From NCBI GenBank assembly GCA_947477885.1, contig CANJUD010000001.1, positions 234,632 through 298,631 of the forward strand: DNA of 64,000 nt. Direction: 5' to 3'. Positions 19,940 through 22,261 of the stretch are shown here, one piece after another; within the stretch, counting starts at the first letter, position 1, and each line of letters starts with the position of its first letter. The DNA is from Bacteroidota bacterium. Its GTDB lineage: Bacteria; Bacteroidota; Bacteroidia; UKL13-3. A model generated the notes under the pieces. The model made no database searches. It saw nothing but the letters and a program-made list of their open reading frames with translations, and was not told where the DNA came from. The translations under genes were made by a program, and so were the position numbers.

Positions 19940-20188
19940 ATGTACTTGTCCGAACTAAAAAAGGGGGAAACCGCTGTAATAGAAGCCATTGAAGCCGATG
20001 ATTTAGTGGCCAAGTTATTTGAAATGGGCTGCGTTCCTGGCGAAAAAGTAAAAATGGTTTTGGTTGCCCCTTTTGGAGACCCTGTTGCCATACAAGTAGC
20101 AGGTTATACTTTAGCCATGCGAATACAAGAAGCTGCAAAAGTGCGGATCAGAAAAGATAATTTTAGTTCTCAAAAAATTAAACTCTAA
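19940..20188 (+). CDS. feoA: Ferrous iron transport protein FeoA
   Basis: FeoA is a small SH3-like cytoplasmic partner of the FeoB iron transporter. The ATG at 19940 gives an 82-residue protein starting MYLSELKKGETAVIEAIEAD, then LVAKLFEMGCVPGEKVKMV and GDPVAIQVAGYTLAMR, all typical. The track's earlier start adds 14 unconserved residues. The TAA at 20186-20188 is in frame with the feoB coding sequence that follows immediately. Confidence 0.9.
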   Translation: MYLSELKKGETAVIEAIEADDLVAKLFEMGCVPGEKVKMVLVAPFGDPVAIQVAGYTLAMRIQEAAKVRIRKDNFSSQKIKL

Positions 20189-22261
20189 AAAAATATCAGC
20201 CCAAAACTTCTCCATATTGCTTTAGTCGGAAATCCCAATTCAGGGAAATCTACGCTATTTAATGTAATTACTGGCCTTAACCAAAAGGTGAGCAATTTCC
20301 CGGGCACTACCGTCGATTATAAGTGGGCCGATATAGGGAATGCGCGCATCATTGATTTGCCAGGCACCTATAGTATTTATCCCAAAAGTGGCGACGAGCA
20401 GGTAACCGTATCTACCATCCTTGGGCAAAAAACTGGATTTGAACCCAATAAACTCATTGTGGTTGCAGATGCATCAAATTTGAAACGCTCGCTGCTATTG
20501 TGTTTACAAGTAATCGACTTAGGGCTGCCAACAGTACTAGCGTTAAATATGTTAGACGTGGCTGCACAAAAACATATACAAGTTGACTCGGTAGAGCTTT
20601 CAAAACTTTTGGGAATACCTGTAGTTGAAATTAATGCACGCAAAAAGCAAGGCATTGATTTATTAGAACAAACTGTAGCCAGTTTAAAAACTCCCACAAA
20701 GATTTTCTATCATATCAATCCTGCCATTGTTGAATTTTTGGAGGAATTAAAAATTGTAATCAATACCGGCAATATATATAAAGATTTGGTGATGGCCCAC
20801 CAAGTTTCAAATGCCTCACATGCAAAGCAGAATATAGCGAGGGTATTCTCAAAATACGAATTTGAAACGGGCAAACTTCAAGCACGAGAGACTGTAGAGC
20901 GTTTTAAGCAAATAGATGAAATACTTATTGAATGTATTACAAAAACTGCGCATGTAACTGATAGAAGCAATTTCGCTGATAAAATTATCACCCATAAAGT
21001 ATGGGGATTGCTTATATTTTTCGCATTACTGTTTGTGATGTTTCAAAGTATTTTCTGGTTAGCACGCTGGCCTATGGAATTAATTGAACAAGGGTTCGAC
21101 AGTCTAAGTTCTTTTACATTGCATATGTTCCCCAATAATATGTGGAGCGATTTATTTGCCAATGGTGTGCTTGCAGGTGTATCAGGAGTGCTGGTTTTCG
21201 TACCGCAAATAATGATTTTGTTTTCGTTGCTCACCTTGCTCGAAGACAGTGGTTATATGGCCCGCGTAAGTTTTATTATGGACAGGCTAATGCGAAGTTT
21301 TGGATTGAACGGAAAATCTGTAGTGCCGCTAATCGGGGGAATGGCCTGTGCAGTTCCTTCTATTATGGCCACACGCAATATTGAAAATGTGAGAGACCGT
21401 CTTATTACTATCATGGTTATTCCGCTAATGAGTTGCAGTGCCCGCTTGCCAGTATATGTTTTACTGATTGGCCTCATAGTGCCTGACACGCAAGTATGGG
21501 GCGTGTTCAGCATGCAAGGACTTGTGATGCTGGGTATGTATTTGGTTGGATTTATTGCTGCATTATTAGTAGCATGGATATTTAAACTTGTGTTAAAGCA
21601 AAACAAGAAAAACTATTTTATATTGGAAATGCCTGCATATAAATGGCCAACAATAAATAATGTGTCATTAGTAGTATGGAGTCGTGTAAAAATATTTGTG
21701 AAGGAAGCTGGACTTATTATACTTTGTGTGTCTGTTATACTCTGGTTTTTGGGTAGCTATGGACCGGGAGATAATATGCAACAAATAGAAAAAAAATATA
21801 GTCAAACAATATATAAAGATTCATCATTTGCACAAGCAAAAATGCAAGCTGAAAAATTGGAAGCATCGTATGCCGGGCATTTTGGCAAATGGATTGAACC
21901 CGCAATTAGTCCCTTAGGATTCGATTGGAAAATTGGTATTGCATTATTAAGTTCCTTTGCTGCACGCGAAGTATTTGTAGGTACTATGTCAGCTATATAT
22001 AGTATTGGGGATGGAGAAGGCCACCAAAGTTTGAAACATAAAATGCAAGCAGAAGTTGATACACTTACTGGCAAACCTCGATATAGTATGGCCACAGTTT
22101 GGTCGCTCATGTTCTTTTATGCGTTTGCATTGCAATGTACCAGCACAGTGGCAGTAGTATATCGAGAAACCAAATCGTGGAAATGGCCCTTGTTGCAAAT
22201 AATTATTCTTACAGGAATGGCTTATTTGGCGAGCTTGGCTATATACCAGGGTTTTTCTTAA
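20189..22261 (+). CDS. feoB: Ferrous iron transporter FeoB, without a canonical start codon
   Basis: FeoB imports Fe2+ and has a cytoplasmic G domain and a membrane gate region. The G1 motif GNPNSGKST is encoded at about 20228-20254, upstream of the GTG the track uses (20288), so the true start must lie further left. Between the feoA stop and HIALVG the codons are AAA AAT ATC AGC CCA AAA CTT CTC, with no ATG, GTG or TTG. Later motifs are intact: SNFPGTTVDYK, DLPGTYSIYP (G3), ALNMLD (G4), membrane gates and YSMATVWSLMFFYAFALQC. About 690 residues follow the feoA stop. Likely explanations are a split FeoA-FeoB fusion, an ATC or ATT start, or a sequence error. Confidence 0.85.
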   Translation, partial: KNISPKLLHIALVGNPNSGKSTLFNVITGLNQKVSNFPGTTVDYKWADIGNARIIDLPGTYSIYPKSGDEQVTVSTILGQKTGFEPNKLIVVADASNLKRSLLLCLQVIDLGLPTVLALNMLDVAAQKHIQVDSVELSKLLGIPVVEINARKKQGIDLLEQTVASLKTPTKIFYHINPAIVEFLEELKIVINTGNIYKDLVMAHQVSNASHAKQNIARVFSKYEFETGKLQARETVERFKQIDEILIECITKTAHVTDRSNFADKIITHKVWGLLIFFALLFVMFQSIFWLARWPMELIEQGFDSLSSFTLHMFPNNMWSDLFANGVLAGVSGVLVFVPQIMILFSLLTLLEDSGYMARVSFIMDRLMRSFGLNGKSVVPLIGGMACAVPSIMATRNIENVRDRLITIMVIPLMSCSARLPVYVLLIGLIVPDTQVWGVFSMQGLVMLGMYLVGFIAALLVAWIFKLVLKQNKKNYFILEMPAYKWPTINNVSLVVWSRVKIFVKEAGLIILCVSVILWFLGSYGPGDNMQQIEKKYSQTIYKDSSFAQAKMQAEKLEASYAGHFGKWIEPAISPLGFDWKIGIALLSSFAAREVFVGTMSAIYSIGDGEGHQSLKHKMQAEVDTLTGKPRYSMATVWSLMFFYAFALQCTSTVAVVYRETKSWKWPLLQIIILTGMAYLASLAIYQGFS

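Follow-up and report, generated by a model that had tools for sequence, protein, structure and literature searches.

The feoA–feoB junction in the window (the whole stretch of 64,000 nucleotides that was analysed) raises the question of where translation of feoB begins, as the gene reaches its GTPase P-loop without an ordinary start codon. The original prediction had stated that feoB has no ATG, GTG or TTG start, and this is borne out: none of these codons occurs in frame in 20189–20227, ahead of the P-loop at 20228, and the first is a GTG at 20288–20290, inside the G domain and 60 nt beyond the P-loop start. Because this GTG lies past the P-loop start, initiation there would remove the G1 motif. 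It had also placed feoB in frame with feoA across a single TAA, which is likewise what we found; the stop is at 20186–20188, and the FeoB frame has the same phase as feoA, is open from 20189 and matches PF02421 with E = 1.1e-50 (Pfam). The G1 loop, expected about 45 nt past the feoA stop in that frame, does lie in that frame, at a measured distance of 39 nt. A run of seven A adjoins the feoA TAA in this genome, and the junction at 20183–20236 reads CTC TAA AAA AAT ATC AGC CCA AAA CTT CTC CAT ATT GCT TTA GTC GGA AAT CCC. Its features are as follows.

19940–20188, + strand: feoA, complete, with an ATG start and a TAA stop at 20186–20188 (PF04023, E = 1.7e-20)
20189–20194, + strand: feoA–feoB gap of 6 nt (AAAAAT), from the sequence
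20195–20197, + strand: ATC, the proposed feoB start codon; AUY at the aligned position in 5/5 clade members
20195–22261, + strand: feoB, intact, 688 codons plus stop; PF02421, PF07670 (two stretches) and PF07664 above cut-offs
20216–20218, + strand: ATT, the rival start codon, 12 nt 5' of the P-loop, inside the clade-invariant 8-nt CATATTGC
20228–20254, + strand: FeoB G1/P-loop GNPNSGKST, from the sequence and relatives
20288–20290, + strand: GTG, the earliest in-frame canonical start, past the P-loop, from the sequence

The comparison drew FeoB homologues from 64 genomes in 14 genera of the same family and from further families of its class; a search at order level returned matches from the same family only. 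Five FeoBs of the 72-row tree lack a usable canonical start: those of this genome (G000), of G001 and G002 in the same genus, of G005 in a second genus and of G013 in a third. Their protein identities to G000 are 93% (G001), 91% (G002), 61% (G005) and 57% (G013). Exactly 33 nt 5' of the P-loop, the codon is ATC in G000, G001, G002 and G005, and ATT in G013. No ATG, GTG or TTG that would give a functional FeoB was found in these genes, G002 alone having a TTG 63 nt 5' of the P-loop, which lies within feoA, is not common to the other four and could act as the start in G002. All 67 other FeoBs of the tree have an ATG, GTG or TTG 24–72 nt before the P-loop, and the NTG starts of the family are nearly always at −27 to −42. 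Likewise, a canonical start 5' of the P-loop was present in 55/55 further class-level sequences, the count being of FeoBs with a located P-loop (five more were left out); 51 of these 55 starts fall within 21–75 nt, two at −18 and two at −81/−84. As every other FeoB scored (67/67 and 55/55) has a start upstream of the P-loop, the absence here is more than chance.

The AUY feoB genes form one clade with 100/99 support (mixture model), in which one change of state suffices, consistent with a single origin of the AUY start. Path lengths between the genera of this clade are about 1.4–1.7 substitutions per site, which signifies that the feature is old; just five genomes carry it, apparently through a single origin. 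Inherited across three genera, the feoB start in this clade thus appears to be AUC, a very rare start codon, or AUU in the case of one relative. An ATC or ATT start had been the second option of the original prediction, and it is strongly supported, the same position holding ATC four times and ATT once among the five genomes.

No indels occur between AUY and the P-loop in the five genomes, and the spacing 5' of AUY varies, indicating that the constraint on the frame begins at AUY. ATC makes up 8–28% of the Ile codons in the five AUY feoB genes. This feoB has eight ATC codons further inside, and at none of them do both same-genus relatives also have ATC; likewise, no column is ATC throughout among the 49 in which all three same-genus feoBs encode Ile. 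Codon 1, by contrast, is ATC in each of the four closest genomes. Since internal ATC codons drift while codon 1 is fixed, codon 1 does not behave as a mere internal isoleucine. On this comparative evidence, translation of feoB very probably initiates at AUC 20195–20197.

This conclusion has to be weighed against readings that need no AUC start. The two genes of this genome share a phase over a single TAA beside the seven-A run, as would be left by an ancestral FeoA–FeoB fusion broken by a stop, be it through point mutation, programmed TAA readthrough, a frameshift or an assembly error. A fusion split by a stop was the first option of the original prediction, and the relatives speak against it. 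The relative frame of feoA and feoB differs among G000, G001 and G002, so that all three frames are represented within one genus, which excludes split fusion, readthrough and frameshift as the common mechanism. The feoA stop is intact in all five AUY genomes, 4–11 nt upstream of AUY, with gaps of varying length (6, 5, 4, 11 and 5 nt in G000, G001, G002, G005 and G013, respectively), and the rest of the family has FeoBs with NTG starts of their own, after or overlapping the feoA stop. Neither the one continuous conserved frame of a fusion (three frames in the genus, stops intact) nor the conserved in-phase stop between domains of programmed readthrough (phase varies) was found among these relatives. 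Comparison with relatives had been suggested as a check, and with five genomes lacking a start and frames not conserved, it disfavours a sequence error. An assembly error in the A run is ruled out by the concordance of five diverged genomes, across which an error would not recur. We therefore regard the broken fusion in any of its forms as highly improbable; judged from the relatives, the in-phase arrangement across one TAA is a coincidence of this single genome. A gene that is decaying or truncated in the clade, and either untranslated or translated from GTG 20288, would equally explain a P-loop preceded by no canonical start, but it is hard to reconcile with the state of feoB. The only feoB copy of this genome, an assembly of 25 contigs and 99.88% completeness, is open over 688 codons, and its FeoB_N G domain with the P-loop, its Gate domains and its FeoB_C are all above the Pfam cut-offs; within the genus, the proteins are 91–93% identical, whereas DNA identity is about 80%. 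Within the genus, codons 12–31 show 6–8 synonymous versus 0–1 nonsynonymous differences. As this mainly synonymous change lies entirely 5' of GTG 20288, the stretch is translated and constrained. Decay thus has scarcely any probability, and the selection pattern rules out a pseudogene or an internal GTG start.

Two further explanations accept a non-canonical start and locate or account for it differently. Translation from ATT 20216–20218 (−12), four codons before the P-loop glycine, draws on the invariance, in 5/5 genomes, of this ATT together with the CATATTGC around it, and two other FeoBs of the class start just 18 nt before the P-loop. However, it would leave only three residues between the initiator and the P-loop glycine, shorter than in any other FeoB scored, and it leaves unexplained both the conserved rare ATC at −33 and the indel boundary exactly at −33; we hold it to be quite improbable. 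Alternatively, start-codon choice could be generally relaxed in this lineage through an altered IF3, ribosome or tRNA, with no gene-specific reason for AUC. A PIF1-like helicase outside the window, with no canonical start in either G000 or G001, where an ATA aligns with the TTG of G002, and the few distinctive residues of the clade's IF3 would fit such a relaxation. Against it, about 46 other genes, compared with same-genus homologues over the 400 kb of this genome on which the genome-wide start comparison rests, have ordinary conserved ATG, GTG or TTG starts; the initiator tRNA looks normal; and the K-to-N and E-to-K changes in IF3 also occur in families with normal feoB starts, leaving two columns unique to the clade. 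General relaxation is unlikely, if somewhat less so than the ATT start, and initiation at AUC 20195 remains our preferred reading.

The eight bases of CATATTGC (20213–20220) are invariant in 5/5 genomes, including the wobble positions of the His and Ile codons, in an otherwise variable N-terminal stretch; it could be a chance match, a second start or an initiation signal.

In G000, no ATG, GTG or TTG precedes the Walker A motif of the helicase (C1:181173–182504; L115:1173–2504, + strand), and the sole one in G001 is an internal TTG (relatives L127, L128). ATA stands in G000 and G001 where G002 has TTG, the positions having been matched by eye from the codons, and this gene may be a second one with an AUH start. 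Repeat-like sequence containing ACTGATTACTGTTTACTGACCACT abuts the helicase in G000 (about C1:181100–181172) and in G002 (L128), not in G001, and provides an in-frame stop just before the gene. A codon-usage scan for missing starts returned the helicase as its top match; the scan is insensitive, ranking feoB only 72nd. A third gene apparently without a conserved start (C1:232164–232614) was rejected, as an ATG is present and its homologue is clipped by a contig end.

Components of the initiation machinery were also inspected, and neither the tRNAs nor IF3 pointed clearly to a cause acting across the lineage. Three tRNA loci have a CAU anticodon, among them one with the GGG/CCC stem typical of initiators (30/34 loci covered). 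A special initiator tRNA was rejected, as the sole initiator-type tRNA found among these 30/34 loci looks normal. Loss of IF3 is ruled out by an intact IF3 gene in this genome (C4:15801–16331; L223). Among the 59 genomes compared, the IF3 columns unique to the AUY clade are 87 (N) and 112 (T/A) in query numbering, and the other residues that distinguish the clade within the family recur in other families. In both G000 and G002, the infC gene itself appears to be TTG-started and has hardly any N-terminal extension.

How an AUC start could be used is suggested by the arrangement of the two genes. The ordinary CAU initiator tRNA would decode AUC 20195–20197 as formyl-Met despite a mismatch at the third position. 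Initiation would be supplied by ribosomes finishing feoA at the TAA 4–11 nt upstream or, alternatively, by a 30S subunit that stays on the mRNA, which is A/U-rich; as initiation events would come from such ribosomes or leftover subunits, FeoB synthesis would be slow compared with that of FeoA. Family-wide, the start of feoB lies close to the feoA stop or the two genes overlap. That NTG relatives are closely spaced too is a point against; coupling of feoB initiation to feoA translation is judged slightly more likely than not. The 20 nt 5' of AUY are A/U-rich with 1–7 G+C, and reading of these 20 nt revealed no AGGAGG-like run that would form a strong Shine-Dalgarno sequence. In E. coli, re-initiation without Shine-Dalgarno pairing is inefficient and IF3-sensitive, IF3 acting against non-canonical starts (PMC2268962). 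Bacteroidota lack Shine-Dalgarno sequences, and their initiation is tuned by mRNA structure and upstream bases, including A at −3 (PMC6847099). An A at −3 of AUY is present only in G000, G001 and G013. No riboswitch or known RNA element was found at the feoA–feoB junction, and no RNA structure common to the five AUY junctions was apparent in single folds.

Starts of the family's feoB genes comprise 16 ATG, 18 GTG, 19 TTG and one unclassified, in rows that are related by descent and not independent, while genes of this genome with a same-genus homologue have 36 ATG, 4 GTG and 7 TTG. GTG and TTG thus account for 37/54 family feoBs versus 11/47 genes of this genome, which suggests that the family generally prefers weak feoB initiation. 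A passage from NUG to AUY would be possible where ribosomes arrive from feoA and low FeoB is tolerated or wanted. AUC would then have been retained because weak initiation is useful, and would probably be subject to IF3 like other natural non-AUG starts. Selection of AUY for low or IF3-sensitive FeoB synthesis is plausible, at slightly less than even chances. A fuller version, in which AUC/AUU is a selected, clade-wide, IF3-tuned and termination-coupled valve on ferrous-iron import that works without Shine-Dalgarno pairing, in one of few AUH-started genes of the lineage (the PIF1-like helicase, with AUA, being the second), is put forward only tentatively and is rather unlikely to hold in every part.

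Natural bacterial starts other than ATG, GTG and TTG are very few. A start-codon survey reconstructed 61,358 AUG, 5,080 GUG and 2,468 UUG ancestral starts, and its reported switches outside these three codons were to CUG and AUU only, two to AUU and none to AUC (PMC5622118). Among the papers listed by a literature search on feoB and start codons, none had such a start in its title or the opening of its abstract. If true, an AUC start of feoB that has persisted through deep FeoB divergence would mean that initiation with a third-position mismatch can be stable in a phylum lacking Shine-Dalgarno guidance, and it would offer a direct test of start-codon choice without such pairing. Gene callers restricted to ATG, GTG and TTG would truncate such a FeoB, losing the GTPase P-loop.

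The E. coli genes infC and pcnB have AUU starts, according to work referenced by PMC2268962 and PMC13009471. Of these, infC is autoregulated by IF3. They resemble feoB in having an AUH start, which in E. coli limits expression, and differ in that the codon is AUU rather than AUC, the genes are different and the host uses Shine-Dalgarno sequences. In S. aureus, the AUA starts of infC and ccpN (the latter shared with B. subtilis) and the AUU start of cvfC1 are proven and conserved, and carry an extended Shine-Dalgarno sequence (PMC13009471). Like the AUC of feoB, these are conserved AUH starts with a third-position mismatch, and they lower initiation; unlike feoB, each has extended Shine-Dalgarno pairing, AUC is not among the codons, and the genes encode IF3, a regulator and a small protein rather than an iron transporter. 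The GUC start of Streptomyces sigR, proven by experiment, is repressed by IF3 (PMC5472188). It shares with feoB a lineage-conserved non-canonical start in a two-gene operon, and annotation restricted to ATG, GTG and TTG misses it; however, the codon is GUC, a strong Shine-Dalgarno sequence (AGGAGGTG) is present and sigR stands first in its operon, whereas the feoB AUC is proposed from sequence. The ordinary feoAB operons of the family are similar in their adjacent genes, in stop and start codons that are close or overlap, and in a homologous start 27–42 nt before the P-loop, but this start is ATG, GTG or TTG. The kind of start proposed here is thus already known (AUU in infC and pcnB, AUA in ccpN, GUC in sigR); what would be new is AUC, in an iron transporter and without a Shine-Dalgarno sequence.
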